A stretch of DNA of 64,000 nucleotides from the NCBI RefSeq assembly GCF_013408175.1, contig NZ_JACBYW010000002.1, positions 310,001-374,000 on the forward strand, in the 5' to 3' direction. The DNA is from Actinopolyspora biskrensis (GTDB lineage Bacteria; Actinomycetota; Actinomycetes; Mycobacteriales; Pseudonocardiaceae). Under the pieces are notes generated by a model. It was not told the DNA's origin. It made no database searches and saw only the letters and a list, made by a program, of their open reading frames with translations. Below, piece after piece: positions 37,481-57,228 of the stretch. How positions within the stretch are numbered: position 1 is the first letter of the stretch; the number at the start of each line of letters is the position of its first letter. The translations under genes and the position numbers were made by a program.

Positions 37481-37501
37481 ATGCTCATTTGGGAGGTTGA
37501 A

Positions 37502-39790: not shown

Positions 39791-39845
39791 TAGTGATTAA
39801 AGCTGGTTTTTGGTGGCTACGCATGTAAGATCGGAAATACGAGGG

Positions 39846-39867: not shown

Positions 39868-39882
39868 TAACGACCTGTCGCG

Positions 39883-40352: not shown

Positions 40353-40391
40353 TGTTTCCAGGGAAGGAACAGACGCTAGTGAGGGGCGAGC

Positions 40392-41434: not shown

Positions 41435-41438
41435 ATCC

Positions 41439-42566
41439 CTAATTCTGCAGCTTCTCGATACGAGCGCGCTGTCGAGCTGATCCGGTGTTCCCGGCCAGCT
41501 CCTCAGCGCGTTTCGCATGTTTGCGCGCTTCGTCTTCCTCGCCGCGGGCTTTCAGGGCCAACGCGAGGTCCACACGCATACCGGCTTCCGCACGTCGGAA
41601 ATCGCCTCCGGCCAAATCGCCCAGCGCGGAGTTCAGGTCGTTGACCGCTTCATCCGCTCCGAGGCGCGCCAGGCAGTGTCCCCGCCAGCGGGCCAGATGC
41701 GTGCTGTTCAGGGCGAGGAACGGGAGCTCCGGATCGCTATCCCCGGGTTCCTTCGGCAGCAGCCGCTCCGCCTCGTCCAGAGCTTTGTGCGTACCTGCGT
41801 AGTCACCGGTCGCCGCGCGCATCTCTCCCTCCGCGGCGGCGAGCCAACTGCGCATTCGAGGATGTACTCGATTGATGTCCTTGGATCTGGCTCGTTGCAC
41901 GAGCGAAAGGGCTTCCGACGGGCGTTCGGAGTCCAGCAAGACGTAGGCCTGCTGGGCCGTCACATGGGCGAGGATGGAAGGGTTATCCGACTCGCGTGCT
42001 CCGGTTTTCGCCAGTTCGTGCATGCGCCAAGCATCCTGCACATTGCGCATGTCCAGAGCTTGCCAGCCCGAGAGAGCCGAAGCCTCGGCCAGAGCAGCGG
42101 CCAGCAAATCCCGTTCGTCTCCGGGAACTGCGTACTTCAGCATTTCCTCGATCTGATGGACATGGCTGCTGGTCTGAGAAAAAAGCCGTTCTGCTCCCAG
42201 CCTGCGGTCGAGCAATCGGAAGTTCTGTGTTTGGCTCTCGAAAAGCTCGACAAGCGAGGAATCCACTTCGGAGAAGCGGAGCCTGTCGTCTATCTCGGCT
42301 GAGGTCTCTGCGTAGTCCGATGATTCGATCGGCGTGAACCCGAGTTCAGCGGGAGAGCGTCCGTAAGCAGCGCAGAACGGTGCGTGGTACTGCTCCGGGA
42401 CGATACGAGAACCCTGCTCCCAATACCGCATCTGGCGATTGATGCTTTCGTCGGTGACGAACAGAGGTTGGCCCAGGTCCTCAGCGGAGCGCTTCAGTTT
42501 TCGTATGGCCTGCTGCTTCGTGAGTCCAAGTTCCTGTCGCACACGCAGCAGTGGCGTGGCCTCCAT
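41439..42566 (-). CDS. XRE-family regulator with TPR-like sensor region
   Basis: 375 aa. The N-terminal 60 residues or so form a helix-turn-helix (LLRVRQELGLTKQQAIRKLKRSAE ... INRQMRYWEQGSRIVP). The rest is helical with TPR-like repeats (ALAEASALSGWQALDM, AYVLLDSERPSEALSLVQRA, AGTHKALDEAERLLP). It is convergent with the NUDIX gene (4 bp gap) and divergent from the transfer operon starting at 42855, so it is a likely regulator of that operon, possibly peptide- or signal-responsive. Confidence 0.85.
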   Translation of the reverse strand: MEATPLLRVRQELGLTKQQAIRKLKRSAEDLGQPLFVTDESINRQMRYWEQGSRIVPEQYHAPFCAAYGRSPAELGFTPIESSDYAETSAEIDDRLRFSEVDSSLVELFESQTQNFRLLDRRLGAERLFSQTSSHVHQIEEMLKYAVPGDERDLLAAALAEASALSGWQALDMRNVQDAWRMHELAKTGARESDNPSILAHVTAQQAYVLLDSERPSEALSLVQRARSKDINRVHPRMRSWLAAAEGEMRAATGDYAGTHKALDEAERLLPKEPGDSDPELPFLALNSTHLARWRGHCLARLGADEAVNDLNSALGDLAGGDFRRAEAGMRVDLALALKARGEEDEARKHAKRAEELAGNTGSARQRARIEKLQN

Positions 42567-42724
42567 GGATCCCTCCAGTCACTCGTCCGGTCTCACTCTG
42601 CACAAGGGAGGACTCGGCAGGCAAGCCAGTCCGTCCCCTTTGGTCCCCCTCTCGTCCCGTGTTGGGAAGCCGCCGAGGTCGACAACCTTGGAGATGTCAA
42701 CGCGATGCGCTTGCTCAAGCCACA

Positions 42725-42783
42725 GGGTTGACAACCCAAGAAGGCATGTGCCCTACTTGTTCTCAACAGGTTGGGTACCTGTT
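42725..42783. promoter_or_regulatory. operators in the divergent XRE/transfer-operon promoter
   Basis: GGGTTG-A-CAACCC (42725-42737) is a 13-bp palindrome containing a TTGACA -35-like hexamer. AACAGGT (42765-42771) and ACCTGTT (42777-42783) form a perfect inverted repeat around TGGGT. Flanking TGTT...AACA pairs repeat the half-site. These are probable sites of the XRE regulator. Confidence 0.5.
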
Positions 42784-42854
42784 CAACATAAAGGGTTCCC
42801 CGCAGCCGCCACTGCGAGGAACCGATATCGGGCCAGACGAGAGGAGCCGACCCG

Positions 42855-43136
42855 ATGGAGATCTTCCCAGGACGACCGGACCGGGCAGAAGAGCAACTGC
42901 ACCCGGAGGTCGTGGAACCGACGGCCGAGGAGCTCGCGGCGGTGGAGTCGCCGTTGCCGGAGTGGGAGAGGCTGCGTGTCCAGCGGTTTTACGCGGAGAT
43001 GATCGAGCAGGAGCTGGGACCGGACCTTCCGGAGGACGTGCCGGCGCGGCGTACTGCTTCGGGAGCTGTGCTGTGGCTGGTGCCTGGCGAGACCGGTCGC
43101 TGCGGTGACGAGTTCGCCGGGGGTGAGGCGGCATGA
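42855..43136 (+). CDS. small AICE protein of unknown function
   Basis: 93 aa, acidic N-terminal half rich in E and P, then a helix (PEWERLRVQRFYAEMIEQELG). First gene of a chain of five genes joined by 4-nt stop-start overlaps (42855-45190). No family recognised. Confidence 0.65.
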   Translation: MEIFPGRPDRAEEQLHPEVVEPTAEELAAVESPLPEWERLRVQRFYAEMIEQELGPDLPEDVPARRTASGAVLWLVPGETGRCGDEFAGGEAA

Positions 43137-43519
43137 AGGTCGAGGTGTCGTTGGCGCCGCTGGTGCACACCAGCTCGGGCAGCTTCGGGATGTCAGTGCC
43201 GGTCGAGGTGGGCGACACGGTGTATCGGGTTCCGCGTCCGATGTCGGTGCTTGAGGGCCCCGTGGTGCTTACTCCGGAGGTCGAGGCATCCGCGGACGCT
43301 CGTGCGGTGTCGCTGCGGATGGATCGCTGGATCGTGCTGCACGTGTTCGCCAAGACGACGTTGCCGATCACGACGCCGGATATGGCCACGGCCGTCCGCG
43401 CGGGACGGGAGTTCCTGGCCGATCCGGGGATCGGATGGCAGTCCAGCGAGGCCGATCTGTACGCGTGGGCTGCCGCGTGGGCGGAGCGGGCCAACACCGC
43501 TGGGGGAAGTGAGCAGTGA
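43133..43519 (+). CDS. small AICE protein of unknown function
   Basis: 128 aa. The N-terminal half is beta-rich (KVEVSLAPLVHTSSGSFGMSVPVEVG), the C-terminal half helical with several tryptophans. ATG overlaps the previous stop by 4 nt; its own stop overlaps the next GTG. No family recognised. Confidence 0.65.
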   Translation: MKVEVSLAPLVHTSSGSFGMSVPVEVGDTVYRVPRPMSVLEGPVVLTPEVEASADARAVSLRMDRWIVLHVFAKTTLPITTPDMATAVRAGREFLADPGIGWQSSEADLYAWAAAWAERANTAGGSEQ

Positions 43520-43806
43520 TGGCGACGGCGGTGCGGATCGCGACGTTTCCGTTTCGGGTGTTGGGGCGGCTGGTCAAGCTGCTGTTTCTGCCGGTGCTGA
43601 TCGTGGCTGCCACGTGGCTGGTCACCGGTGTGCAGTCGGGGTGGTTCCTCGGCGTTGCCGGTTTCTGTGGCCTGTGGACGTTCGTGGTGGTGCGGCTGTG
43701 GTGGCTGCAGACCGTGGGTGAGCTGCGCTCCCTGGGGCGGGGAACGGTGGATGTACGTACCCGCTCCCGCAAGCATTCCGGCTTCCGAGAGGAGGAACGG
43801 CGATGA
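43516..43806 (+). CDS. small membrane protein of the transfer operon
   Basis: 96 aa with two hydrophobic helices (VKLLFLPVLIVAATWLVTGV; WFLGVAGFCGLWTFVVVRLWWL) and a basic C-terminal tail. Starts at GTG 43516 (overlapping) or ATG 43519. Small membrane Spd-type proteins accompany TraB in Streptomyces elements and help plasmid spread; this is a candidate by position and topology only. Confidence 0.65.
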   Translation: MMATAVRIATFPFRVLGRLVKLLFLPVLIVAATWLVTGVQSGWFLGVAGFCGLWTFVVVRLWWLQTVGELRSLGRGTVDVRTRSRKHSGFREEERR

Positions 43807-44072
43807 GTGGGCTGTCCACAGCGAGCCGGGCGCTGCTGGAGCTGTTGGGAACGATGCCGAAGCCGTTCGCCGCGGCGGCCGAGCGTGCGGCGTGGCTGCG
43901 GGAGAAGGCTCGGGTGTTGGAGCTGATCGCGGCCGACTACGACGTCGGGGCCGCCGCAGGCTCCGAACTTGCCGCCCGGGAAGCCGAGCGGAGCAGGCAA
44001 GCAGCGGCCGAGGCCCGCAGTAGGGCCGATCACGTGGCAAATCCTGTCGGTCTGGGAGGTGAGCAGCGATGA
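43803..44072 (+). CDS. small helical AICE protein
   Basis: 89 aa, alanine-rich and mostly helical (ERAAWLREKARVLELIAADYDVGAAAG; EAERSRQAAAEARSRADHV). Coupled on both sides by ATGA overlaps. No family recognised. Confidence 0.6.
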   Translation: MSGLSTASRALLELLGTMPKPFAAAAERAAWLREKARVLELIAADYDVGAAAGSELAAREAERSRQAAAEARSRADHVANPVGLGGEQR

Positions 44073-45190
44073 CGCAGATGCGGTATCGGGACCCGCGTGC
44101 GGCGCGGACGGAGGCCAAGGCCGAGGCGGAACGGGCCCGGGCGGATGCCGAGGCCACCAGAGCCGAGACTCAGCGTGCTGCGGCTGAGGCAGCGGACGAG
44201 CGTCGGCGGGCACAGCGGGCCGAACGTGCCGAGCGGGCACGGCAACGACGGCACGAGCGTCGGCAGTGGCTGGCCACGGTGGCCCAGTGGGCGGGTTCGC
44301 ATCAGATCGAGCTGTTGATGAGCCTGATCGTGGTGGTACCGGGGATGCTGGCGTGGTCGGCGATGGCCGCTTACGGCGTCGACATCTACGGCCCGCTCGG
44401 CGGGGTGTTGCCGCTGTTTTCCGAGGGCGCGATGTGGGCGTTCGCGTTCGCGGTGCACCTGGCTCGTCGGGAAGGACGCCCGGTGGGTTGGCTGCACGTC
44501 GGGGTGTGGACGTTCGCCGCGGTCAACGCGACGTTGAACTTCCTGCACGGTCTCGACGTCTCCAGTGTGCTCGTCGGTGTGGTCATGGCGCTGGTCGCGG
44601 TCGGCGGTGTTGTGGCGCATCAGTTGATTACGGCCGCACCGATGCGCACCCGTCGTAGCCGGGCGGAGAAAGACCAAGCCCGAACGCAACGGATCGCGCA
44701 CCGGCGGGCGGTTCGCATGGAACGGGCCGCGGTGCGGCACGCCATCGGCGAACTGTCCACCGACGGCTCGGTACGACTGCGGTACGCACCCGGTGTGGTC
44801 ACCCTGCCCCGGTGGGGCCGGCGGCTACGTCCGGCGGTGGTTCCGGGACTGGTTCCTCGCGGTTCCCACCAGACCGAAGAACCCGACACGGGCGAGCAGT
44901 TGGCCACCGAGATCACCGACTGGTTGGCCGCCTCGCCCCATGAGCTGACGGGGGCGGTGGAACCGTCGGGAACAGCGAAAACGAGCCCGCAGAGTGCTAG
45001 TGAGACGCAGCCGGGAACCACCGAGTACCTGGCCGAGATTCGGCGAGCCATCGCATCCGGCGAGCTGGAACCGAGCCCGACCCGACGCCGGGTGCAGCAG
45101 CACCTCGGAGTACGCGCGACTACTGCCCAGCGGGTGCTACGAGAACTGCGCCGGAACCGGGGCGACGGACCGGCCGAGGTCGCCGCGTAA
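44069..45190 (+). CDS. DUF2637-type membrane protein, probable plasmid-spread protein
   Basis: 373 aa. A long charged, alanine/arginine/glutamate-rich helix (residues 8-68, coiled-coil-like) precedes four hydrophobic helices: IELLMSLIVVVPGMLAWSAM, GVLPLFSEGAMWAFAFAVHL, the WLHVGVWTFAAVNATLNF region and VLVGVVMALVAVGGVVAHQL. That block matches the DUF2637 pattern. The C-terminal part ends in a helix-turn-helix-like segment (RRRVQQHLGVRATTAQRVLRELRR). DUF2637 proteins are common in AICEs and Streptomyces plasmids next to traB. Last gene of the overlapping chain. Confidence 0.78.
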   Translation: MTQMRYRDPRAARTEAKAEAERARADAEATRAETQRAAAEAADERRRAQRAERAERARQRRHERRQWLATVAQWAGSHQIELLMSLIVVVPGMLAWSAMAAYGVDIYGPLGGVLPLFSEGAMWAFAFAVHLARREGRPVGWLHVGVWTFAAVNATLNFLHGLDVSSVLVGVVMALVAVGGVVAHQLITAAPMRTRRSRAEKDQARTQRIAHRRAVRMERAAVRHAIGELSTDGSVRLRYAPGVVTLPRWGRRLRPAVVPGLVPRGSHQTEEPDTGEQLATEITDWLAASPHELTGAVEPSGTAKTSPQSASETQPGTTEYLAEIRRAIASGELEPSPTRRRVQQHLGVRATTAQRVLRELRRNRGDGPAEVAA

Positions 45191-45285
45191 CCCACTCCGC
45201 TACGGCGGATCCCCACAGATTCGGCAGCCGCTCGGGCTGTCTGGTCGGTAAGTCCCTGGTGTTTTTCGAGAAAGGCGGGTTTGTC

Positions 45286-45642
45286 ATGGCAGAGCAGAGT
45301 TTCAGCTTGGGTGATCCGGAGTTCTTCTCGCCGCGGGCGATTCGGGAGTACTGCGAGAACGGCCGCAAGTTGATTCGGCCGCTGTATCACGAGTTGCACG
45401 TCTCGGCGGAGGAACTGGAGATGGTGCTGCGCGACGTGCAAAGCAGCAACCCTCAGATGTTCGGGCAGGACTCGAAGGTGCGGGCCCGGATCGTGGCCAA
45501 GCATCTGCGGCAGTCGGCCGAGGCGGTCGAGGTGGCCTCTGCCTCGCTGGCGCGGACGTATCAGTCCTTCCGCAAGCACTACCTGGCCGAGGCGAACGCC
45601 AAGTCGCGGCCACGCCGTCAGTTCGACGTCACCGACCAGTAA
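45286..45642 (+). CDS. small AICE protein before traB
   Basis: 118 aa, soluble and largely helical (REYCENGRKLIRPLYHELHVSAEELEMVLRDVQ; ARIVAKHLRQSAEAVEVASASLARTYQSFRKHYL) with a basic C-terminus. ATG 45286 is preferred over the open-frame start at 45259. It lies 50 bp before traB. Function unknown. Confidence 0.65.
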   Translation: MAEQSFSLGDPEFFSPRAIREYCENGRKLIRPLYHELHVSAEELEMVLRDVQSSNPQMFGQDSKVRARIVAKHLRQSAEAVEVASASLARTYQSFRKHYLAEANAKSRPRRQFDVTDQ

Positions 45643-45692
45643 GCCAGTGATCGCGGTGACCGCGAGGCCATCGGGAAAGGAGCGTGCGAACA

Positions 45693-47759
45693 ATGGCCAG
45701 TCAGCGTAAGCGTGGCGGTGACCCTGCGGTCACCGGCGGCACCAACTCGGAGTTCGGGTATCAGAAGCCGAAGGGCCACTGGGCCTCCCGGTTGGCTCCC
45801 TACGCCCCGGAATGGGTGGGTGGCCTGACGCTGTGGCCGGTGGCGGCCGGAGCGCACCTGTGGTTCGCCTCGGCCGAGGCGATGCCCTGGGCCAGTTCGG
45901 GGCTCACGCTGCTGGGCGCTGGGCTGACCGGGTTGACCTACTATTGCTCCCGAGCACGGGCGGCACTGGTGCGCCAGTTCGCCACCGCCACGGTCGGGGT
46001 GACCGCCGCGTGGACCACCGCGGCCACCATCGCCGGGCCGTGGCAGACTCCGCTGCTGGAGCTGTGGGCATTCGGCGGTGGTGGTGTCGCGGTGGCCTGG
46101 AGCATCCACAAGGCACTCAAACGCGGCGGCGACTCCGACGAAGGATCGTCGAACACCACCTCGGATCTGTTCGACAAGGTCAAACTCTCCGGTGTCAAAC
46201 CGGGGAAGATGGAGGTGCAGCCGAACAAGGTCACCGGCCCGTTGCAGCTTCCCGCCGGAGAGGTCGACGTATCGGACGTGCAGAAGGCCTCGGACAAGAT
46301 CGCGGCGATGCTGGGGCTGCGCAAGGGAGCGGTCCGCATCACCGAGAACCCCGACGACGCCTCCAAGGCGACCATGACCGTGGTGGCCGAGGACGTGCTC
46401 AAGGATCCGCAACAGTGGCCAGGACCGTCCCACCCGGGCGAGTCCATCCTGAACCCGGTCGAGTTGGGAGTCTACGAGAACGCCGAGGTGGTGCGGCTGT
46501 GGCTGCCCGGTGACAAGTCCACCTCGCGCAATGCCACCCACGTGCAGGTCAACGGGATGAACGGCTCCGGCAAGTCCGGAGGGTTCAAGCTGGCCGCGGC
46601 CGAGATCCTCACCCGCAGGGACGCGGTACTGATCGTGCTGGATCCCTCCAAAGGCGACCAAACGGTCCAGTTTCTGCAGAACTCGGCGGCGCACCTGGTC
46701 ACCGACGCCGGGGGCTGCAAGAAACTGCTCAAAAAGCTCCCGCAGGTAATCACCGACCGGGCCTCCCAGCTGGGGCAGTGGGGCATGGATCAGTGGGAAC
46801 CGGCCGCGTACGAGCAGCACGGCATGCCCTATGTGGTCCTCTGGATCGAGGAGGCCTCCAAGCTGCTCAAGGACGTCGACCAGTTCGACACCATCGCCCA
46901 GGAAGCCCGATCCGCGGGGATCTCGTTGGTCATCTCGCAGCAGAAGTCCAGCTTCCGGCAGATGAGCACCGACGTGCGCTCCCAACTCGGCGCGGCCCTG
47001 TGCTTCGGAGTGAAATCCACCGAAGACGCCGGATACAGCCTCTCCGACGAAACTCTGGAGGCCGGGGCGCGGCCCGAGCAGTGGCAAAACCGCCGTCCGG
47101 GCTGCCTGTACCTGGAAGGCCCCGGCATCGACGAGGAGCTGTTCGCCACCCCGGGCCGTACCTACCTCCACTCAGATGAGGCCCTGGCCGTCGACATCGC
47201 CGAACACACCCCCAACGCCGCCGAGTTGGAAGCCTCCACCGCCAAGACCCTCGGCCTGCCGACCAAGTCACACCACGAGAACCACTCCAGCGAGCACAAC
47301 ACGACCGAGCAGGAAGGAGGAACAGTCGTGCCCCTGCACAGCCCCAGCCGCACAGCAGAGCCAGCCAACCACGACTCGGTCGAAACCGATCTCGAACAGC
47401 TCGACCAACTCGAAGACGACGACGAAGACGACACCGACGAGAACGTACTCGCGCTGCCCGAACCCCACGAACCCGAACTAGAGGTCGACCCCGACGCCGA
47501 ACTACCCGCCGAAACCAACACCACCGCGCTTCCACAGCCCCGGCCGAGCCTGACCGAAGCACGGGCCAACCTGCACGACTGGATCGGCCGGCAAACCACC
47601 GTGTTCGGCCCCAAAGACGTGCCCACCGAGCTGCACGGCCGCGACCGCTCCTGGTCCTCCCGCGAGCTAGCCCGCCTGGCCGAAGACGGCGTGATCACAC
47701 CCGCCGACGAGGCTGGCAGCTACTACCCACACCCCGACGACGAGCAACACGCCGCGTAG
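45693..47759 (+). CDS. traB: TraB-type FtsK/SpoIIIE DNA translocase (conjugal transfer)
   Basis: 688-aa septal DNA pump that moves double-stranded plasmid DNA between mycelial cells. N-terminal hydrophobic helices lie at about residues 45-125. Walker A GMNGSGKS is at 288-295; the two acidic strands are AVLIVLDPSKGD and VVLWIEEASKLL. The last 190 residues hold an acidic, E/D/T-rich linker followed by a C-terminal winged-helix-like domain (RDRSWSSRELARLAEDGVITPAD), the usual place of clt recognition. ATG 45693 lies 10 nt after AAAGGAG; the GTG at 45684 is too close to it. Confidence 0.9.
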   Translation: MASQRKRGGDPAVTGGTNSEFGYQKPKGHWASRLAPYAPEWVGGLTLWPVAAGAHLWFASAEAMPWASSGLTLLGAGLTGLTYYCSRARAALVRQFATATVGVTAAWTTAATIAGPWQTPLLELWAFGGGGVAVAWSIHKALKRGGDSDEGSSNTTSDLFDKVKLSGVKPGKMEVQPNKVTGPLQLPAGEVDVSDVQKASDKIAAMLGLRKGAVRITENPDDASKATMTVVAEDVLKDPQQWPGPSHPGESILNPVELGVYENAEVVRLWLPGDKSTSRNATHVQVNGMNGSGKSGGFKLAAAEILTRRDAVLIVLDPSKGDQTVQFLQNSAAHLVTDAGGCKKLLKKLPQVITDRASQLGQWGMDQWEPAAYEQHGMPYVVLWIEEASKLLKDVDQFDTIAQEARSAGISLVISQQKSSFRQMSTDVRSQLGAALCFGVKSTEDAGYSLSDETLEAGARPEQWQNRRPGCLYLEGPGIDEELFATPGRTYLHSDEALAVDIAEHTPNAAELEASTAKTLGLPTKSHHENHSSEHNTTEQEGGTVVPLHSPSRTAEPANHDSVETDLEQLDQLEDDDEDDTDENVLALPEPHEPELEVDPDAELPAETNTTALPQPRPSLTEARANLHDWIGRQTTVFGPKDVPTELHGRDRSWSSRELARLAEDGVITPADEAGSYYPHPDDEQHAA

Positions 47760-47775
47760 CCAAGCAGCCGGTGGT

Positions 47776-47791
47776 GGCTGTGTACACAGCC
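47776..47791. repeat. 16-bp perfect palindrome after traB
   Basis: GGCTGTGT-ACACAGCC, 16 bp past the traB stop; CACAGCC recurs at once downstream. Followed at 47823-47849 by an alternating CG/purine-pyrimidine tract. Candidate cis-acting transfer locus (clt) or terminator. Confidence 0.45.
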
Positions 47792-47950
47792 TGCACAGCC
47801 ACACACCCCGCCAGCCCGGCCCAACGCGCGAGCGCGCGCACGCGCGCGAAATCCCCTAGTTGATCATGCACACCCGATGTGGTGGCGGCACTGCACACCC
47901 CAATGCATACACACATAGTAATCAAACTGGTGACGGAAAGGAGTCCGATC

Positions 47951-48370
47951 ATGCCGGGACTGCCCGAGGTGACCGTGGCCGGAACACTGACCGCCGACCC
48001 TGAGATCAAGTACTTCGACTCGGGCGTGTGCGTCGCCAACTTCACCGTGGCGGCCAACGACCGGCGATTCGACAAAGACCAAGGCCAGTGGGTAGACGCT
48101 TCGGCCACCTTCCTGCGCTGCCAGATCTGGCGCCAAGAGGCCGAGCACGTCGTCGAATCGCTGTCGAAGGGCAACCGCGTGCTGGTCACCGGAGCGCTGA
48201 AACAACGCTCGTGGGAGACCGAGCACGGCGAGAAACGCACCGTCATGGAACTGGCCGTGACCGAGATCGGGGCCAGCCTGAAGTTCGCCACCGCGGCCGT
48301 GCGCAAAGCCACCCGCGAAGCGGCCACCGGTGAGCCCGCGGCGCAGCCAGCCGGGCCACCCCCGTTCTGA
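47951..48370 (+). CDS. ssb: single-stranded DNA-binding protein
   Basis: 139-aa SSB-like OB-fold protein: LPEVTVAGTLTADPEIKYFDSGVCVANFTVA, WRQEAEHVVESLSKGNRVLVTGAL. It ends in a short PPPF tail instead of the canonical acidic DDDIPF tail, as in many plasmid SSBs. ATG 47951 with AAGGAG. Likely supports element replication together with the primase-polymerase. Confidence 0.9.
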   Translation: MPGLPEVTVAGTLTADPEIKYFDSGVCVANFTVAANDRRFDKDQGQWVDASATFLRCQIWRQEAEHVVESLSKGNRVLVTGALKQRSWETEHGEKRTVMELAVTEIGASLKFATAAVRKATREAATGEPAAQPAGPPPF

Positions 48371-48390
48371 CCACCTGCTGGTTTGTACAG

Positions 48391-48431
48391 CCCGGCCAGG
48401 CCCAGGCCTGACAAGCAACGGCCTGGCCGGG
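48391..48431 (+). terminator. 12-bp stem hairpin after ssb
   Basis: CCCGGCCAGGCC (48391-48402) and GGCCTGGCCGGG (48420-48431) form a perfect 12-bp stem with a 17-base loop, 20 bp after the ssb stop and 29 bp before the next start. Terminator or attenuator. Confidence 0.6.
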
Positions 48432-48460
48432 TTCCCACCCCTACAGGAAGGGAAATACCC

Positions 48461-49063
48461 ATGCTGCCAGACATCGCCCTGACGCTGGGCACCGCCGGAT
48501 GGGCCACGGCCGCCACCACCCTGGCCTGCCGCTACCGCACCCGACTGCACACCGACCCGCTGACCGGGCTCGGCAACCGCACGGCGCTGTACCGCACCGC
48601 ACGGCGTCCCTGGCGTCGCGGCTTCGTCGGCGTGCTGTTGGTCGACCTCGACCAGTTCAAAGCGATCAACGACGCCCACGGCCACGACACCGGCAACCGC
48701 GTGCTGGCCGCCGTGGCCACCCGGCTGGCCGAGACCACCCAGCACGGCGAGCGCGCCGTACGACTGCACGGCGACGAATTCGCCGTCTGGCTCGGAACCA
48801 CCCCCACCACCGACCATGCCGAAGCCCGCGCCGAGGCCATCACCCACGCCCTGGCCGAACCGCTCTGGATCGACGGGCACCGACTGACCGTGCTCGGCAG
48901 CGTCGGCCTGGCCACCGGTCCCGCGCACACCCCGGTGAGCGACCTCCTCAGCCAAGCAGACACGCACATGTACCAGGTCAAAACCACCCGACAACTGACC
49001 AGCCTGCCCACCTACTCCACCCGACCCCGTGACCAGCATCCCCACGGAGGTCACGCCGCATGA
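48461..49063 (+). CDS. GGDEF-domain protein (possible diguanylate cyclase)
   Basis: 200 aa. A short hydrophobic N-terminal stretch is followed by one GGDEF domain: DPLTGLGNRTALYR, VLLVDLDQFKAINDAHGHDTGN and the signature loop as LHGDEF, so the first glycine is histidine. Metal-binding DLDQFKxIN is intact. Cyclase activity with HGDEF is uncertain; it may instead bind nucleotide as a receptor. GGDEF genes recur in AICEs between traB and the primase-polymerase. ATG 48461 with GGAAGGG. Confidence 0.83.
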   Translation: MLPDIALTLGTAGWATAATTLACRYRTRLHTDPLTGLGNRTALYRTARRPWRRGFVGVLLVDLDQFKAINDAHGHDTGNRVLAAVATRLAETTQHGERAVRLHGDEFAVWLGTTPTTDHAEARAEAITHALAEPLWIDGHRLTVLGSVGLATGPAHTPVSDLLSQADTHMYQVKTTRQLTSLPTYSTRPRDQHPHGGHAA

Positions 49064-49108
49064 ACCCCAGCCGTCCCCACACAGCCCTGTTCACGGAGGT
49101 GAACCGCA

Positions 49109-50311
49109 GTGAGTAGCCCCTACGATGTGGCCTGTTGGCTGGCCGGACACGACTTCGCCGTGTTCCCGCTACGACCGCACGGTAAGCGTCCGTTCGGCAA
49201 CTGCCGCTCCTGCGGAAACGGCCGGTGCACACTCCACGAATGCCCGTGCCTGGCGAACGACCGACCTTGCCACGGCCTGCTGGCTGCCACCACCGATCTC
49301 GGGCAGGTCACACGGTGGTGGCGCTACACCCCGAAAGCCAACATCGGCATCCACACTGGCCGTTCCGGGCTGGTGGTACTCGACCTCGACCGCAAACCCG
49401 GACCACCCGCACCGGCCGCCCGTGACGTGCCCACACCGGTCACCGACGGGCTGCAAGCCCTGCACGCGATCACGGCCGCCGAGCAGGTGCCCTGGCCGGA
49501 CACGCTGACCGTGTGCACCCCCAGCGAGGGCAGGCATCTCTACTTCCGGTGCCCCGAAGGCCTGTCGGTTTCCAGTGACGCAAGCGGGCGGATGGGGCAC
49601 CAGATCGACATCCGTGCCGAAGGTGGCTACGTGGTCGCCCCTGGATGTGAAATCTACTCTCCACCCGAAGATCGGGAAGGAACCTACCAGCGCTGCTCGC
49701 ACACCACCGGCATCGCCGATCTTCCCGAGTGGCTGTGCAACCGGGCGCTGCCACCGCCGCCGGCCCAGCCTGAACCTCGGCAGGCTCCCAACCTTCCCGC
49801 GGCGCTGCCGGGGCGGCACACCGAGACCTACTGGCGCCGCATCTGGCACGACGAACTCGACAAGGTCGAAACCCGCCCCGGGGAACGGTGGCGACTGCTC
49901 TACGCCGCCGCACGCAGGCTGGCCAACCTCGCCACCCACGACCAAGCCCCCTGGAGCGAAACCGAGGCCACCGAGGCACTGCTGGCCGCCGCACTGCGGC
50001 GCCGACAACACACCGGCAAACCCACCGAGGAAGCCATTGCCCGTCGCAACATCACCCGCGGCTGGCAACGCGGCACCCGCGACACCCCCGACAGCCTGCA
50101 CGGACTCGGCCGCACACGGCCTTCCGGCCGGGCCGAGACACCGGCTGAACCTTCCCGAGGCGGCACAGGCCAACTCAGGAAGCAATCGAGCGGGGCGTGC
50201 GGACGGCTGAGCGGCTCCACAACGGACACCGCCGGAAGGGGCGGGTCATCGGACCAGCGGCCAAACACCCCGCCGACAGACCAACACAGCTCCCACGAGG
50301 GGGCCGCGTGA
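49109..50311 (+). CDS. bifunctional DNA primase/polymerase (Prim-Pol, AICE replication)
   Basis: 400 aa. N-terminal prim-pol domain (about residues 5-205): VFPLRPHGKRP, metal-binding VLDLDRK, EGRHLYF and IDIRAEGGYVVAPG. A cysteine-rich insertion (CRSCGNGRCTLHECPC) looks zinc-binding. The C-terminal region is helical and then low-complexity. GTG 49109. Its stop overlaps the next GTG (GTGA), so it is coupled to the DUF3987 gene, the usual replication pair of this AICE class. Confidence 0.88.
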   Translation: MSSPYDVACWLAGHDFAVFPLRPHGKRPFGNCRSCGNGRCTLHECPCLANDRPCHGLLAATTDLGQVTRWWRYTPKANIGIHTGRSGLVVLDLDRKPGPPAPAARDVPTPVTDGLQALHAITAAEQVPWPDTLTVCTPSEGRHLYFRCPEGLSVSSDASGRMGHQIDIRAEGGYVVAPGCEIYSPPEDREGTYQRCSHTTGIADLPEWLCNRALPPPPAQPEPRQAPNLPAALPGRHTETYWRRIWHDELDKVETRPGERWRLLYAAARRLANLATHDQAPWSETEATEALLAAALRRRQHTGKPTEEAIARRNITRGWQRGTRDTPDSLHGLGRTRPSGRAETPAEPSRGGTGQLRKQSSGACGRLSGSTTDTAGRGGSSDQRPNTPPTDQHSSHEGAA

Positions 50312-51963
50312 GCCTGCCACAACCCCAAACACCCGGGCTGGGGCGCATCCAGCGTCCCAGCCCGGTACCCAAACCCGACGAGGACACCACCACGACCATG
50401 CCCACACATCTCACCGCCATCCCCACCCCAACCGAAACAAAGCATGTCCCGGCGTCTCCCGCGGCCGCCGCGGGTTGGGAGCCTCCGGTGCCGCTGGGCG
50501 AGACCCGCGCGCGGCCGGAGTTTCCCACCGACGCCCTGACCGGCTGGCTCGGCGACATGGTCGAGGCGGTGGCCGAAGCGACCCAGACACCGCCCGATCT
50601 GGCCGGTTGCGTGGGGCTGGCCGCGTTGTCCACCGCTGCCGGAGGCCGTGCCCTCGCGCGCCCCCGCACCGGCTGGGATGAGCCGGTCAACATCTACACC
50701 GTGGTCGCCCTGCCCCCGGCAACTCGGAAAACACCGGTGTTTCGAGCCATGACCCGCCCGTTGCAGCGAGCCGAGTCCGAACTACTGGAAAAGGCGCGCC
50801 CGCTCATCGAACAAGCTCGGCTGGAACGTAAAACCGCCGAGGCCAACCAGGAAAAGGCCGAACGACAGGCGGTGAGCAAGAACGGTGACGAGCACGAGCA
50901 GGCCATGGCCGATGCCCTGGACGCCGCCCTGCAAGCCCAGGACACCGACGTGCCCGCCGAACCGCGGTTGATCGCCGACGACCTCACCCCGGAAACCGCG
51001 GCTTCGCTGCTGTCCCAGCAGAACGGGCGCATCGCGGTGCTGTCGGCCGAAGGCGGCATCTTCGCCATCCTGGCCGGGCGCTACTCCGGTGCCCCCAACC
51101 TCGACGTGTTCCTCAAGGGCCACGGCGGTGACATGATCCGCATCGACCGCAAGGGGCGTCCCTCGGAATGCATCGACAACCCCGCCATCACCCTAGGACT
51201 CACCGTGCAACCGGCCATCATCGACGAGCTGTCCCACACTGCTCTGTTCCGCGGTTCCGGACTGCTGGCACGGTTCCTGTACTCCCTGCCCGACAGCCGC
51301 GTCGGCCAACGCCTGGCCGACCCGCCACCGGTGCCCGAGAACATCGCCACCACCTACGACGAACACCTCCGCGGACTCGTCCACACCCTGCACGCCTGGA
51401 CGGATCCGGCCGTGCTGGCTTTCACGCCGGAGGCCAACCAGATACTCGTCGAGCTGCACAACGAGATCGAACCCAAACTTGACCCGCAACGGGGGGAGTG
51501 GGCTCACATCGGTGACTGGGCGGGCAAGCAGATCGGCCAAACCGTGCGGCTGGCTTCGCTGCTGCACCTGGCCGCTCATCCGAGCGAGCCCTGGACCATC
51601 CCGGTGGCCGCGGACACCGTCAAACGCGCACGCAGGCTCGCCCGCTACTTCACCGCGCACGCCCTGGCCGTGTTCGATCGGCTCGGAGCCGACCCCGACC
51701 TGGAAGCCGCCCGCATCCTGCTCGACTGGATCCAGCGCACCGGCCCGGAAAGCTTCACCAAGCGCGAAGCCCACCGGGCCAACCGCGGCGAACGCTTCCG
51801 CCAGGCGAATGACCTCAACCCGGCACTGGCGCTGCTGGAGGACCACGGCCACATCGCCTACGTCGAACCCACACGAACCGGACCGGGACGCCCACCGAGT
51901 CCGCGCTACTACACGCACCCCACCTACCGACACCAGACCCCTGGACAGAATGGACACAATTGA
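50308..51963 (+). CDS. DUF3987 replication-associated protein
   Basis: 551 aa. Body matches DUF3987/YfjI-type proteins found with prim-pol genes: FPTDALTGWLGDMVEAVAEATQTPPDLAGCVGLAALS, an altered P-loop-like PPATRKTPVF, GRIAVLSAEGGIFAILAGRY and SGLLARFLYSLPD. The central charged helix (about 170-220) looks coiled. The C-terminus (TKREAHRANRGERFRQANDLNPALALLEDHG) resembles a winged helix. GTG 50308 is coupled to the primase stop; ATG 50398 is an alternative. Its 3' end runs into the iteron array. Confidence 0.82.
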   Translation: MSLPQPQTPGLGRIQRPSPVPKPDEDTTTTMPTHLTAIPTPTETKHVPASPAAAAGWEPPVPLGETRARPEFPTDALTGWLGDMVEAVAEATQTPPDLAGCVGLAALSTAAGGRALARPRTGWDEPVNIYTVVALPPATRKTPVFRAMTRPLQRAESELLEKARPLIEQARLERKTAEANQEKAERQAVSKNGDEHEQAMADALDAALQAQDTDVPAEPRLIADDLTPETAASLLSQQNGRIAVLSAEGGIFAILAGRYSGAPNLDVFLKGHGGDMIRIDRKGRPSECIDNPAITLGLTVQPAIIDELSHTALFRGSGLLARFLYSLPDSRVGQRLADPPPVPENIATTYDEHLRGLVHTLHAWTDPAVLAFTPEANQILVELHNEIEPKLDPQRGEWAHIGDWAGKQIGQTVRLASLLHLAAHPSEPWTIPVAADTVKRARRLARYFTAHALAVFDRLGADPDLEAARILLDWIQRTGPESFTKREAHRANRGERFRQANDLNPALALLEDHGHIAYVEPTRTGPGRPPSPRYYTHPTYRHQTPGQNGHN

Positions 51964-52242
51964 CACAATCCCGTCAGCAGCGGCGAATATCCAGCGCACA
52001 GGCTTACAAAGCTACCGGTGGTTCGCTGGACACAACTGGACAGAATTTGGACACAAATCACCGGCCGCCCCCGTGGGAGGGGCACCGTGTCCAGTCCGAG
52101 CCAGCCACCGCGCGGGCCTCGACCTAATTCTGTCCAAATTCTGTCCAATACTGTCCAAACCGGCGCCCGCCACTCCGTGGCTTCGTGACCAGTACAAACG
52201 GAGCTGAAACCCGAGTTCTGTCAATTCTGTCCATTCTGTCCA
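51942..52242. repeat. mirror-symmetric array of twelve TGGACA/TGTCCA hexamers (origin candidate)
   Basis: Left arm: TGGACA at 51942, 51951, TTGACA at 51960 (9-bp steps); TGGACA at 52027, 52037, 52048 (10 and 11). Right arm: TGTCCA at 52131, 52142, 52152 (11 and 10); TGTCAA at 52219, TGTCCA at 52228, 52237 (9-bp steps). Every unit has its exact reverse partner about base 52092. Even the degenerate TTGACA/TGTCAA units match. The array sits beside the replication genes, suggesting Rep-binding iterons or an origin. Confidence 0.85.
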
Positions 52243-52276
52243 AGCCCCGCGTGTGCTCACCGACCGGGAGACACCT

Positions 52277-52693
52277 GTGCTCGAACGCCGCTACCGGACG
52301 AGCCTCGACTGCTACGACCCGAACGCCGAACACCACCCGATCCCGACGTACCCGTGGAAACGGGCACCGGTGCACCTGGTCACCCGCCGCCAGCTCCGCG
52401 AGGCCGGACTCTGCCCCGGCGAGTACCCACCGGTGGCCCAGTGCCTGCGGCCCCGCAAGCGTCGCCCCACCGAACCGCTCCGAGCCTGGCTCTACGACGG
52501 GCGGCTGGCAACCGAGAAACGTACTCCCAGCCCCGCCCAACTGACCGCCGTATCGGCCATGAATCGGGCACATCGCATCTGCGGCACCTGCCAGCGCGAC
52601 GTCGGTTACCGCATTCCGACCACCCCGCCACTGCGGGGCGAATGCCTCGACTGCCACGAGACCCGCACTTGCCTCAGCCAGGCAGCAGCCTGA
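52277..52693 (+). CDS. RRQRL-type zinc-binding protein of AICEs
   Basis: 138 aa. Contains VTRRQLREAGLCPG, the RRQRL-like motif by which this AICE family is known, and a C-terminal CGTCQRD ... CLDCHETRTC cysteine set that fits zinc binding. GTG 52277 has GGGAG 6 nt upstream; GTG 52253 is the longer alternative. It lies just before the excisionase gene. Role unknown, probably DNA binding. Confidence 0.78.
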   Translation: MLERRYRTSLDCYDPNAEHHPIPTYPWKRAPVHLVTRRQLREAGLCPGEYPPVAQCLRPRKRRPTEPLRAWLYDGRLATEKRTPSPAQLTAVSAMNRAHRICGTCQRDVGYRIPTTPPLRGECLDCHETRTCLSQAAA

Positions 52694-52710
52694 CCGGAAA
52701 GGAGACACCC

Positions 52711-52905
52711 ATGCCCAAACGCAGCGGCACCTGGATGACCGTCACCGAATTCTGCGAGGAGATGAGCGTCTCCCGCTCCACGTTCGACGACTGGCGTGCC
52801 AAGAACCGCGCTCCCAAGTGCGTCCGACTGCCCAACGGATCACTGCGCATCCGCCGCACCGACTTCGACAACTGGCTCGAGACCCTGGAGGACGACGCCG
52901 CATGA
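52711..52905 (+). CDS. xis: excisionase-like helix-turn-helix protein
   Basis: 64 aa, MerR/HTH_17 type: WMTVTEFCEEMSVSRSTFDDWRAKN, then NGSLRIRRTDFDNWL. This is the form of AICE excisionases. ATG 52711 with AAGGAG; the stop overlaps the integrase ATG by 4 nt, the classical xis-int arrangement. Confidence 0.9.
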   Translation: MPKRSGTWMTVTEFCEEMSVSRSTFDDWRAKNRAPKCVRLPNGSLRIRRTDFDNWLETLEDDAA

Positions 52906-54317
52906 CCGAGACCACCTACAACGTCCGGGTCTGGAAGATCCAGACTCGTAAGAACGCCAAGGGCAAGGTCACCAGCTATCGAGTCCGTTGGGAAGTCGGT
53001 GGGCAAGATCGAGCCGACTCCTTCAAGAACAAGGCCCAAGCCGAGAGCTTCCGCTCGGGTCTGGTCAGTGCTGCACGCAAAGGAGAGGCGTTTCGAGTCG
53101 ATACCGGTCTGCCGGTCTCGATGAGCCGCACTGTTGAAGAGATGTCATGGTTCGACTTCGCGTGTGCCTACGTGGACATGAAGTGGCCGGAGCAGTCGGG
53201 CAACTCTCGGAAGGGCATCGCGGAGACGCTGACCACGGTCACCCCAGCTTTGCTGAGCACCGAGCGGGGCAAGCCCGACGACAAGACACTGCGGGACGCG
53301 CTGTTCGGGTGGGCGTTCAACCGGGACCGTCGGGACACGATCGAGCAGCCTCGGCGAGTGCGGGCAGCGCTGAAATGGGTGGCGGCCAACACCAAGCCGG
53401 TCAACACGCTGGCCGAGCCCGCGATGCTGCGTGAGACGCTGCAGTTGATCGCCACCTGGTTGGACGGCAAGCCCTCAGCGGCTTCGGTGGTCAGCCGTAA
53501 GCGGGCGGTGCTGCACAACGCGCTGGACTACGCCGTCGAACGCGGGCTGCTAGACCGCAACCGGCTTCCGGAGCTGAAGTGGTCGCCGCCGAGGAACGTG
53601 CAGGCTCTGGACAAGCGCACCGTGGTCAACCACCAGCAGGCCCTGCGGTTGTTGGAGGCCGTGCGTAGCCAGGGGCCGAGCGGGCCGCGGCTGGTGGCCT
53701 TCTTCGCGGTGCTGTACTACGCCGCCGCACGCCCGGCTGAGGCGGTCAACCTGCACCGGCAGGACGTGACCCTGCCGGAATTGGTCGCCGACCCCGACAC
53801 AGGGCAGTGGCGAGAGCCCGAGGACGAGTGGGGCGAGCTGTTGCTGTCCGAGTCGGCCCCGGAGACCGGGGCGCGCTGGAGCAGCACCGGCAGGCGTCGG
53901 GACCGGCGACAGCTCAAACACCGGGGCAGGGGAGACACCCGCCCGGTGCCCTGTCCGCCGCCGCTGGTGCGACTGCTGCGCGAGCACATGCGGGCCTACC
54001 CGCCACGGGCCAACGGGCAGCTGTTCTACGGGCTGCGCGGTGGGGAGCTCTCGCAGAGCACCTACGGCCACGCCTGGGAACGAGCCCGCAAGGCCGCGCT
54101 GACCCCGGACGAGTTCGCCTCCCCGTTGGCGAAACGCCCCTACGACCTGCGGCACGCGGCCGTGTCCACCTGGCTGGCCGCCGGAGTACCGCCCACTCAG
54201 GTCGCCGAGTGGGCCGGACACAGCGTCAACGTGCTGCTGCAGATCTACGCCAAAGTACTCACCGGCCAAGAAGACGCCGCGCGGCGACGCATCCAGCAGG
54301 CTCTTGAAGGGAATTAG
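52902..54317 (+). CDS. int: tyrosine recombinase (integrase)
   Basis: 471-aa site-specific recombinase. N-terminal arm-binding and SAM-like core-binding parts (about 1-240), then the catalytic domain with Arg277 (AAARPAE), YDLRH carrying Arg417, His440 in AGHS and nucleophile Tyr449 in QIYAKVL. First position of the H-x-x-R box is tyrosine (YDLR), a tolerated change. It would integrate and, with Xis, excise the element at the tRNA-Leu att core 2.8 kb to the right. Intact. Confidence 0.95.
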   Translation: MTETTYNVRVWKIQTRKNAKGKVTSYRVRWEVGGQDRADSFKNKAQAESFRSGLVSAARKGEAFRVDTGLPVSMSRTVEEMSWFDFACAYVDMKWPEQSGNSRKGIAETLTTVTPALLSTERGKPDDKTLRDALFGWAFNRDRRDTIEQPRRVRAALKWVAANTKPVNTLAEPAMLRETLQLIATWLDGKPSAASVVSRKRAVLHNALDYAVERGLLDRNRLPELKWSPPRNVQALDKRTVVNHQQALRLLEAVRSQGPSGPRLVAFFAVLYYAAARPAEAVNLHRQDVTLPELVADPDTGQWREPEDEWGELLLSESAPETGARWSSTGRRRDRRQLKHRGRGDTRPVPCPPPLVRLLREHMRAYPPRANGQLFYGLRGGELSQSTYGHAWERARKAALTPDEFASPLAKRPYDLRHAAVSTWLAAGVPPTQVAEWAGHSVNVLLQIYAKVLTGQEDAARRRIQQALEGN

Positions 54318-54378
54318 GCGTTAGCACCACCTGCCGTGATCGACCCACGGACAGGGCCATCGGTGTGATCATGGTCGG

Positions 54379-55911
54379 GTGCGGGTGGTGATGCAGCGTT
54401 CCTGGCAGTGGCTGCGACGGGTACGAGCGTCGAAGTGGGTATTGGTGGCCGCGGTCGTGGCCCTAACGGGTGGGGTGGCCGCCTCGGTGCCGGTGCCTTG
54501 GCCGGCGTTGGCCGCGTGGGTCGGAGGCGTTCTCCTCGCCTGGGGCCTGCCGGGGCTGGTCACCCTCGGCGCCACCGGGGTGCTGGTGGTTCTCGCGGTG
54601 TTACGGGGTCGCGCGCGAGTTCGAGAGCGGGGCAAGAGGACCGCTGCGGGCTGGGGGCCGGTGCGGCCGATCCCGGGCTGGGCGATCTGGGTTGGCCTGG
54701 TCCTGGTGCTGTCTGTAGGCACGCTGACGGCTTGGGGGCTGGTGACAGCCTTCGGCAGCGGTAGTCCGCAGGACAAGGCCCACTTGGAGGCCATCAAGCT
54801 GGCCGGCAGCATTGCCGTGGGCACCGGCGGGGCGGTCGCTCTGCTACTGGCGGCCCGGCGGCAACGTGCCACCGAGGTGGGATTGCTGCAGCAGGAGCAG
54901 AGAGACGCCAGTGTCCGCCACGATGCCGATGAACGGCGCGCGACCGAGCTCTACACAGCCGCCGCTAACCAGCTGGCCTCGGACAAGGCCCCGGTGCGGC
55001 TGGCCGGTTTGTATGCCCTGTCCCGGCTGGGCCAGTACAACCCCACTTACCGGCAAACCATCGTCGATTTGTGGTGTGCCTACCTGCGCATGCCCTACAC
55101 CCTACCCGGAGTCAAGCCAGACCAGGAAGACAGCTCCGAGCAGTCCGTCCAGGACGAAGCGGGGCAGGACGGTGACAACCAGCCGTTGCTGCTCGATCTC
55201 GCCCCCACCCTGGCCGAAGCCGCCGGACTGTCGCTGGACGGGGCCGAGCAACACCAGCAGGAACGCCAAGTACGACTCACCGCCCAACGTCTACTCGCCC
55301 ACCACCAACAACCCCACCGGGATGAACACGACCAGCCCACCAACCCCGCCTTCTGGGGCGGCGACGACGGAACCGGCCTGGACCTCGACCTGACCGGAGC
55401 CACCCTCGACCACGGGAACTTCCGCGGTTGCTCCGTCCGGGCTGCCCACTTCGACGAGGTCCACTTCCATGGCCTCGCCCGATTCGGCGGGGCGCGGTTC
55501 CACGGCCGCGCCGGTTTCCGCATGGCGCGGTTCCACGGGTCCGCCCACTTCGGCATGGCGCGGTTCCGCGGGTCCGCCCACTTCGGCATGGCGCGGTTCC
55601 ACAGCCGTGCCAACTTCGACGGGGCGCACTTCCACGGCCTCACTACCTTCGACGGGGCGCGGTTCCACGGCCGCGTCGGCTTCCTCAGGGCGCGGTTCCA
55701 CGGCCGTGCTCGCTTCGCCGAGGTGTGGGCACGGCTCGATCACGAAGACTTACTTAGATCGACGTGGCCGAAAGGATGGACAGTGCGCAAGGCCGAGCCC
55801 GGCGACGGCCGCCAGGGCCGCTGGGGCAAGTTCGTCCCTGTCAACGACGCGGACCCCGTGACGACGGAGGCAGCGACGGAGTCGGACGTGCCGGAGCCGG
55901 GTGGTAAGTAA
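54379..55911 (+). CDS. membrane protein with pentapeptide-like repeats
   Basis: 510 aa. Four hydrophobic helices in the first 155 residues, a charged helical segment, then from about residue 330 a beta-helix-like repeat domain. Units alternate five and six residues (ARFHG / SAHFGM), giving an 11-residue period encoded by near-identical 33-bp tandem units (about 55490-55720). Pentapeptide proteins form right-handed beta-helices; the role in AICEs is unknown. GTG 54379 or ATG 54391. The gene starts behind a TGTGATCATG motif shared with the left end. Confidence 0.78.
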   Translation: MRVVMQRSWQWLRRVRASKWVLVAAVVALTGGVAASVPVPWPALAAWVGGVLLAWGLPGLVTLGATGVLVVLAVLRGRARVRERGKRTAAGWGPVRPIPGWAIWVGLVLVLSVGTLTAWGLVTAFGSGSPQDKAHLEAIKLAGSIAVGTGGAVALLLAARRQRATEVGLLQQEQRDASVRHDADERRATELYTAAANQLASDKAPVRLAGLYALSRLGQYNPTYRQTIVDLWCAYLRMPYTLPGVKPDQEDSSEQSVQDEAGQDGDNQPLLLDLAPTLAEAAGLSLDGAEQHQQERQVRLTAQRLLAHHQQPHRDEHDQPTNPAFWGGDDGTGLDLDLTGATLDHGNFRGCSVRAAHFDEVHFHGLARFGGARFHGRAGFRMARFHGSAHFGMARFRGSAHFGMARFHSRANFDGAHFHGLTTFDGARFHGRVGFLRARFHGRARFAEVWARLDHEDLLRSTWPKGWTVRKAEPGDGRQGRWGKFVPVNDADPVTTEAATESDVPEPGGK

Positions 55912-56050
55912 CCCGCAGGGCGGGTCCTGCCGCGGCCGGGCTCAGAGGGTGCTGGATCGCTTACTCGTGCATGACACTTTTATGGCCGGTTGAGGAGCCG
56001 CTGTGCTTACGCGAGGGGCTGCCCTGCAGTTACTCAAGCCCTTGATGTGC

Positions 56051-57001
56051 TTACTGGATCGGTGAGGTCTCTTCCCGCTTGAAGCCGCCTTCTGCTGTTT
56101 CGTAGACGCAGGCGATGTTCAGGCTGTGCAGCAGCTTGACGACGTCGTCGCTGGGCCGGTTCGGCAGGAGCAGTGCGAGTTTGAGAGCTGAGCGGGGGAT
56201 GTGTCGGCTGTAGTCGAGGAGCTGGCCAATTCCGCGGCGGATGTTGTCGCGCGTGGCGTTGCCCTTGGCTTCGTAGAGCTCGTTGGTGTGCTCGTCGTAG
56301 ACGTCGGTCCAAAACGGGCGTAGTTCTCCGGCCGGTCGGAGTTTCCACCTGTGCAGAACGCCGGCTGGGCGGGCCAAGTGCTCGCGGAAGCGCTGGACGA
56401 GCTCGCTCTCTCGCCGCTCGCCCTCGGCGGGGGCTGACCCGGCCGTGGTGAATGTGCGTGTGTCGTGGTTTTCGAGTTCCGCGAGGGTGGCCTCGGAGCC
56501 GGTGGCTGGTTCACCTGCTTGACTTCGGTCATCCTCTCGGTGAAGGGCTTGGCCGGCGGGGCGAAGGTGGAACACGATGACCGTGCGCTGCTCACCGGCT
56601 GTGTCGGGCGCTTCGAGCTCGCGGTAGGGGTCCTGCTGGTCAACTTCGAACTCGCCGAGGTACCGGTGGTTCTTCTGACTGGTCCTCGGCACAACGCCGT
56701 CCGCCACGAACAGGCGGAGAGCCCGCCCGGCACGCTTGTGGTTGAGAACAGAGAGGTTCCGTCTCCGCATGGTCTGTGGGCCTCGCTGCCCATCACCCGT
56801 GTAGCGAAATACGGTCTCGTCGTCGGTCCAGCCGTCGTAGCTGTAGCCGAACGCTGCAGCGCGTGCGGGATCTGAGTACAGGAAGATGTTCGGAGTGGTG
56901 GTCGACGGCTCAATGCCGCCTTGCACGCTGCCTCCGTACCGGCGCTGGCGCTCCGCGCGGCTCAGCAGGCTTCCGACAGGCACATCCCAGTCCTGGCTCA
57001 T
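56051..57001 (-). CDS. modification-dependent restriction enzyme candidate (YDG/SRA-like reader + PD-(D/E)XK)
   Basis: 316 aa. N-terminal part has the hallmark of YDG/SRA readers: YSYDGWTDD (YDGW at 55-58), FRYTGDGQRGPQTM (65-78) and NLSVLNHKRAGRALRLF. A charged linker follows. The C-terminal domain has D233 ... E244-A-K246 and Q260 (TDVYDE, ELYEAKGNATRDNIRRGIGQLLDY), a PD-(D/E)XK nuclease core. MspJI and related type IV enzymes combine an SRA-like reader with such a nuclease. It probably cuts modified invading DNA; the modification (5mC, 5hmC or phosphorothioate) is not known. Leftward, next to attR, as cargo. Confidence 0.8.
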   Translation of the reverse strand: MSQDWDVPVGSLLSRAERQRRYGGSVQGGIEPSTTTPNIFLYSDPARAAAFGYSYDGWTDDETVFRYTGDGQRGPQTMRRRNLSVLNHKRAGRALRLFVADGVVPRTSQKNHRYLGEFEVDQQDPYRELEAPDTAGEQRTVIVFHLRPAGQALHREDDRSQAGEPATGSEATLAELENHDTRTFTTAGSAPAEGERRESELVQRFREHLARPAGVLHRWKLRPAGELRPFWTDVYDEHTNELYEAKGNATRDNIRRGIGQLLDYSRHIPRSALKLALLLPNRPSDDVVKLLHSLNIACVYETAEGGFKREETSPIQ

Positions 57002-57079
57002 GCGTCGACCCTATGATCATGAGGCGCAAGCTTGGGGCCGAATCAACCAATCAACTGTGGCCACGCATTGGCCAGAGAG

Positions 57080-57228
57080 ACTCGCACAGGCCCGCACCGA
57101 GCCGGACACAGCCGCAGATACCGTGATCGGCCGCTGTTCGCGTCGCCCCAGCGCAGCGGCCGTTTTCGGGTGGTGGTGCAGGGTGCCCCCGGTCCGACTC
57201 GAACGGACACTACACGGATTTTGAGTCC
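57080..57228. repeat. right attachment repeat (attR)
   Basis: Direct repeat of 36563-36711 with five mismatches in the first 63 bp, and identical over 57143-57228. Here the repeat continues into the complete tRNA-Leu gene, so this end holds the reconstituted tRNA. Confidence 0.9.

Follow-up and report, generated by a model that had tools for sequence, protein, structure and literature searches.

Directly behind the gene of a DUF3987 (YfjI) protein in Actinopolyspora biskrensis we found an array of twelve short units arranged as a mirror image. We propose that it serves the putative self-loading helicase encoded upstream of it as a cognate site and, most likely, as replication origin. The matching of site and protein is well supported by sequence comparison. 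The origin function is suggested by the position of the array, by an exchange cassette in a relative and by the circular record NZ_CP107792. In the following, the window is the whole stretch of 64,000 nucleotides that was analysed.

The window carries an integrative conjugative element

The window carries an actinomycete integrative conjugative element (AICE), with a tyrosine integrase (Int), an excisionase (Xis), an FtsK-type Tra protein, a replication module and insertion at a tRNA gene. A 129-bp direct repeat of 96.9% identity (36583-36711 and 57100-57228) overlaps tRNA-Leu and marks the likely ends of the element, so that its likely extent is 36583..57228. The element encodes TraA, the FtsK-type conjugation translocase TraB (45684..47759, +), a single-strand binding protein (SSB; 47879..48370, +), a GGDEF protein, a Prim-Pol primase-polymerase (PF09250; 49109..50311, +) and the DUF3987/YfjI protein that we propose as the initiator (50197..51963, +). 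The array comes next and is followed by the genes of an RRQRL zinc-binding protein (52253..52693, +), of a helix-turn-helix (HTH) excisionase whose ORF ends at 52905, just upstream of the integrase, and of the tyrosine integrase itself (52818..54317, +). The GGDEF (diguanylate cyclase) gene lies at 48383-49063 and has a counterpart in a circular Streptomyces relative (L099 6002-6652).

Twelve units are mirrored about one base

The array has twelve units of the TGGACA type, of which ten read TGGACA and two TTGACA. They pair up as mirror images around a dyad at base 52092, and the coordinates of each of the six pairs sum to 104184. On the plus strand, the left outer triplet (51942..51965) consists of TGGACA at 51942 and 51951 and TTGACA at 51960, in steps of 9 bp, and the left inner triplet (52027..52053) of TGGACA at 52027, 52037 and 52048, in steps of 10 and 11 bp. 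Behind a central spacer (52054..52130), the minus-strand partners follow in the same steps, as a right inner triplet (52131..52157; TGTCCA at 52131, 52142 and 52152) and a right outer triplet (52219..52242; TGTCAA at 52219, TGTCCA at 52228 and 52237). The first-pass annotation had described this mirror array of twelve hexamers, with its two kinds of steps and its mirrored degenerate units, and the unit coordinates bear it out in each respect.

The symmetry exceeds chance. Around the dyad 88 of 151 positions are complementary, compared with 29-54 at 29 other centres. TGGACA forms five mirrored pairs with the same centre within 400 bp, while the other hexamers in the 64-kb window reach at most two, and a genome search for the outer triplet with up to three mismatches returned just its two copies in the array. 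The first unit lies inside the DUF3987 reading frame, and the stop codon (51961-51963) falls within the third.

Two further elements lie between the triplets. A thirteenth TGTCCA (52088-52093) is located in the central spacer close to the dyad and outside the symmetry; a functional role for it is unlikely, since it is missing in L001, a relative with 87% identity. The right inter-triplet spacer holds the box TGACCAGtacAAAC (52186..52199), and similar boxes are present in the spacers of many relatives. The box TGACC(A/T)GC or a close variant of it occurs no more than 230 bp from the dyad in 40/47 arrays, and on both sides in 22/47, compared with 20/141 equal-length pieces of the same loci; this 8-base pattern, as counted across the arrays, does not match the copy in the window.

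Several known signals were considered at this site. The units resemble part of the DnaA box. Of the two forms of that box that we tried, the window holds no exact copy, 51700-52500 holds none even when one mismatch is allowed, and the relatives use CCGCA or CACA units, so a DnaA-box origin was rejected. An AT-rich unwinding element at the dyad was rejected as well, since the GC content of the centre is 0.75 (52057-52127). The sole promoter-like match, at 51942, is the outer triplet itself, and there was no Rfam match within 51000-53000.

The array recurs downstream of DUF3987 genes

We drew DUF3987 relatives from genome collections, viral contigs and plasmids and scored 580 bp downstream of each for runs of at least five complementary bases about one centre. 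With the threshold set at 14, 47 of 66 distinct loci, the window among them, had a mirror array just behind DUF3987; many of these loci are related, so the counts are not independent. In the control, the 580 bp upstream of the match, a score of 14 was reached once in 66. The top score among 1650 dinucleotide shuffles was 14, and 49/66 loci scored higher than all 25 of their own shuffles. The window scored 34, L008 62 and the circular Streptomyces record NZ_CP107792 51, and two of six further relatives reached at least 14. The scoring excluded the duplicates L001-L003 and L027, as well as L084, which had too little downstream sequence. Fragments (L045, L089, L094), duplicates (L095, L096, L099) and L097, L098 and L102-L107 also lie outside the scored set.

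The scored stretch was anchored at the extended stop codon; the 19 low loci, and these only, were rescored from the end of the match. Three of them then passed: L041 (27), L069 (19) and L092 (29, with 247 masked bases included). L014 and L029 have clean left-half arrays only, ~15-130 nt past DUF3987, and represent natural half-origin cases. In L023, L066, L073 and L090 units are visible by eye below the threshold, and in L017 the array is displaced behind an inserted gene. By any look, there was no clear mirror array in nine loci (L018, L034-L037, L043, L044, L086, L088); L088 has a short direct pair only, and in L034-L036 a helix-turn-helix excisionase lies within ~125 bp after DUF3987. The surroundings of the array-less L034, L035 and L037 (L047, L048 and L050) held no arrays above background scores. 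An array-like cluster was seen at L049 80-240, ~8.6 kb upstream of DUF3987, in an element without a downstream array.

The first-pass annotation had staked its reading on the symmetry being present in relatives, and this is what we found. The array that it tied to the prim-pol/DUF3987 module is real and conserved, and further elements of this kind show the design too. The same module and array are present in NZ_CP107792, a complete circular record of 18 kb, where Prim-Pol and YfjI are the only genes named for replication. We found no published account of such an array for Prim-Pol AICEs or for DUF3987/YfjI in a search that left most subscription papers outside.

These positions bear on another reading, in which DUF3987 would bind the array to repress genes or to set the copy number, and replication would start at some other place. 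Evidence for a binding site does not by itself establish origin function, and in several elements the array is located between the rep gene and xis/int. However, the arrays are downstream of the DUF3987 gene and not at its promoter, what comes after the array varies among relatives, and for an operator, two-fold symmetry around a phased centre would seem excessive. We consider a control site unlikely and the origin the better reading of the array.

The halves keep helical phase

In the common plan, a triplet with 9-bp steps is followed, after a gap, by a triplet with 10-11-bp steps, in which the middle unit is often degenerate; a centre then separates this half from its mirror image. L022, L025 and L026 have compact variants. 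An automatic geometry reader applied to 49 loci returned the left gap in 28, the right gap in 18 and the centre in 30. The gaps between outer and inner triplets cluster at 43-44, 55-59, 65-69 and 78 bp, and both gaps and centres vary by steps of ~11 bp, about one helical turn.

For 27 centre lengths the best period was 11.45 bp (R 0.81), and none of 10,000 simulations, which assumed uniform lengths and ignored relatedness, gave a periodicity as strong. It was seen in the family of the window (12 values, p 0.013) and in the others (15 values, 0/5,000). The 27 values were hand-picked from the 30: close relatives were thinned, L070 was corrected from 143 to 57, L032 was dropped as ambiguous and L004 was added. 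Before these corrections the period was 11.3 with R 0.71-0.72. The fitted period exceeds 10.5 bp, at which R is 0.43.

Exact mirror equality, claimed by the first-pass annotation, is true of the window and does not hold as a general rule, since the left and right gaps are unequal in several relatives (L010 69/67, L071 58/56, L082 55/68). Across the sequences compared, the rule that is kept is the geometry of the half-module together with its helical phase, and the exact mirror of the window is a tidy case of it. The halves also differ in the base after CA, which is C in 18/78 left units and 2/78 right units (13 loci). This means that they are not fully equivalent. CACAA-type units sit mostly in the half adjacent to DUF3987, a left-right asymmetry.

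An inverted array could also act by base pairing, as a hairpin or cruciform in single-stranded DNA that serves as a single-strand origin or for priming. The single DNA strand indeed folds strongly (z -9.2, with 0/100 shuffles as stable), and similarity is higher within mirrored pairs than between units that are not partners (outer 0.92 vs 0.85, inner 0.88 vs 0.80; 13 loci). Yet such folding is expected of any inverted set of equal units, the base after CA is often mismatched between the halves, and the ~11-bp phasing and the correlation with the protein described below favour binding to the duplex. A structure of this kind is very improbable.

The unit sequence follows DUF3987

The units differ among elements (GGACA, TGACA, CGACA, CCGCA, ACGCA and CACA types), with a 3' side that is mostly CA(G/C/A)AA. 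L085 and L087 have a second class of units, of the GTCAGGGA type, together with a different winged-helix segment.

The most informative relative is L061, from the same genus. Its DNA is 96.6% identical to the window in the left part, 91.3% in tra-SSB and 91.3% in RRQRL-Xis-Int, while from ~50440 to 52240 the identity drops to ~55% and then recovers. At the protein level, TraA (99%), TraB (94%), SSB (97%), Prim-Pol (90%), RRQRL (92%), Xis (100%) and Int (92%) are close to those of the window, but DUF3987 is only 52% identical. The units have changed from TGGACA to the ACACA type and the plan is kept. From these comparisons, L061 has swapped the DUF3987 core, the winged helix and the whole array as one cassette (50440..52240, +, edges approximate). 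L061 differs in other places too. The DUF2637 stretch (window 44014-45223) is not matched by the DNA of L061, where the counterpart looks diverged, ~0.75 kb is added before Prim-Pol with an ORF at L061 7110-7853, which by its motif we take to be a DNA cytosine methyltransferase-like protein, and the ~2.75 kb from the integrase to tRNA-Leu (54308-57056; long ORFs 54379-55911 and 56051-57001) is absent, so that int leads straight into the tRNA region. Because of these differences, the exchange by itself does not single out DUF3987 against all other proteins.

The exchange bears on other proteins that might read the array in place of DUF3987. Clt transfer sites consist of 8-bp TRS repeats, and the TraB proteins of these systems read short repeats through a winged helix. 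A TraB translocase of this kind is encoded in the element, so the array could be a clt-type site. However, TraB of L061 is 94% identical despite the changed units, so the specificity does not follow TraB; the unit tracks a DUF3987 residue, and the array adjoins DUF3987 and not traB. We give this reading hardly any credence. Arm sites of the integrase or excisionase, or an accessory recombination site, would fit the position of xis and int after the array, but in L061 Xis is 100% and Int 92% identical though the array has been replaced. It is just as improbable that the array serves recombination.

DUF3987 itself carries a signal that fits the units. Among 497 columns of the protein, column 527 was the first in predicting the base two before CA in 49 elements: Arg is found there in 15/15 GACA elements and in 0/34 others, with the unit type assigned by hand. 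This set contains loci below the mirror threshold (L014, L023, L029, L066, L073, L090) and loci with mixed units such as L072 and L091. It leaves out 17 of the 66 (L017, L018, L034-L037, L041-L044, L068, L069, L085-L088, L092), of which L041 and L042 (His-Arg, TTGACA) and L088 (Gln-Arg, TGACA) fit the R527 rule by eye, and L085 and L087, with the other unit class, cannot be placed under it. In a phylogeny that left out the winged helix, the independent pairs agreed in 4/4 cases (p 0.125), too few for significance.

The elements L073 and L091 share a genome. Their DUF3987 proteins have 97% identity over the core and 91% over the winged helix, and differ by Asn/Arg at the R527 site plus six residues further on. 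The units are mostly CCGCA in L073 versus GACA in L091; in the left half, both arrays have the same degenerate middle unit in the inner triplet. The first-pass annotation had also brought in prim-pol as a partner. With regard to specificity, the L061 exchange and the R527 correlation make DUF3987 the likelier one, and the specificity partner of the array looks like DUF3987 rather than Prim-Pol.

The genomes G503, G539, G569 and G495 each have two elements with differing units. Incompatibility as the driver of this divergence was not supported: the two copies in G059 share CCGCA units, and in G004 all three have units of a CCGC type.

DUF3987 as a putative initiator

The AlphaFold model of the DUF3987 protein (6 sequences) was of moderate quality (pLDDT 66.6). 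In Foldseek, its C-terminal domain (residues ~500-575) had winged-helix matches with a probability of up to 1.00 and a best E of 0.009, and some of these are methyltransferases. The top fold matches of the core, which we interpret as AAA+-like, were MCM chains, double hexamers included, at E values that are not significant (0.05-0.5). In Pfam the protein matched DUF3987 only, and a PDB sequence search gave three chance-level matches (E 0.25-0.73) and nothing relevant. P174, R177, K178 and R359 are invariant and E285 is nearly so; as we read them, these residues could correspond to the P-loop (P174-R177-K178), the Walker B motif (E285) and the arginine finger (R359) of an AAA+ protein. In the model, R527 is positioned in helix 522-528, the second helix of the winged helix and not the canonical recognition helix.

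We propose that the units would be read by the C-terminal winged helix of DUF3987. Each half, with three 9-bp and three 10-11-bp units, could nucleate one oligomer of the helicase core, and the opposed halves, kept in helical phase over a variable centre, would position two helicase assemblies face to face. These would unwind the duplex bidirectionally, while Prim-Pol would supply the primers and SSB would coat the strands. We infer two hexamers and bidirectional forks from the 6+6 units and the symmetry. Tentatively, this may be an origin that assembles two opposed AAA+ (MCM-like) initiators as one phased complex, with six winged-helix sites per half (12 for two hexamers), a register held across 23-127 bp, an Arg527-GACA code and exchange as one cassette. 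The GC-rich centre (0.75), in place of an AT-rich unwinding element, counts against the origin reading, and so do the 19/66 loci under the mirror-score threshold.

For the replication of Prim-Pol integrative elements, our analysis offers a candidate origin and a putative initiator, together with a residue predicted to set specificity and naturally exchanged pairs, all directly testable. It also suggests a bacterial system in which the loading of two helicases in opposite directions could be studied and a route to predicting the pairing of initiators with origins.

Comparison with known origins

At the origins of SV40 and the papillomaviruses, opposed short sites load two hexameric helicases, a layout similar to the mirrored halves described here. 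Those systems differ in that the DNA-binding domain is N-terminal, the viruses are eukaryotic and the sites are fewer. The origins of iteron plasmids have direct repeats of initiator sites spaced by about one helical turn. Repeated sites at about one turn are shared with the array; here, however, two direct-repeat halves are inverted about a dyad, so it is not a classical iteron origin, which consists of direct repeats only and has an AT-rich unwinding element and DnaA boxes.

The SV40 T-antigen and papillomavirus E1 origins are named as analogues in a study on staphylococcal elements (PMC7581432). According to that study, the helicases SaPI Rep and SCCmec Cch2 use their C-terminal domain to bind short repeats located just behind the helicase gene, a primase-polymerase is encoded nearby and two hexamers are proposed (PMC7581432). 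Our array likewise consists of repeats directly downstream of the gene of a putative helicase. To call it a new type of replication origin, as the first-pass annotation did, is therefore an overstatement, since self-loading helicases with downstream repeats are known (PMC7581432). The helicases described there belong to the DUF927 and D5/Primase_Cterm families, in contrast to DUF3987, and for Cch2 a direct-repeat region with three iterons is described, whereas here there are 12 units in mirrored, phased half-modules with a GC-rich centre. By analogy, the DUF3987 array may work like the SaPI/SCC origins; we do not claim membership, because the SaPI/SCC cores belong to other families.

By gene order, the window resembles RepPP/Prim-Pol AICEs such as SLP1, where the Prim-Pol gene is followed by a replication gene (SCO4617-SCO4618), in the sections of the source at hand (PMC3218068). 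In both cases, Prim-Pol and a replication gene belong to an integrative element that also encodes FtsK-type Tra, Xis and Int. The account of Prim-Pol AICEs in those sections describes no origin of this kind (PMC3218068).
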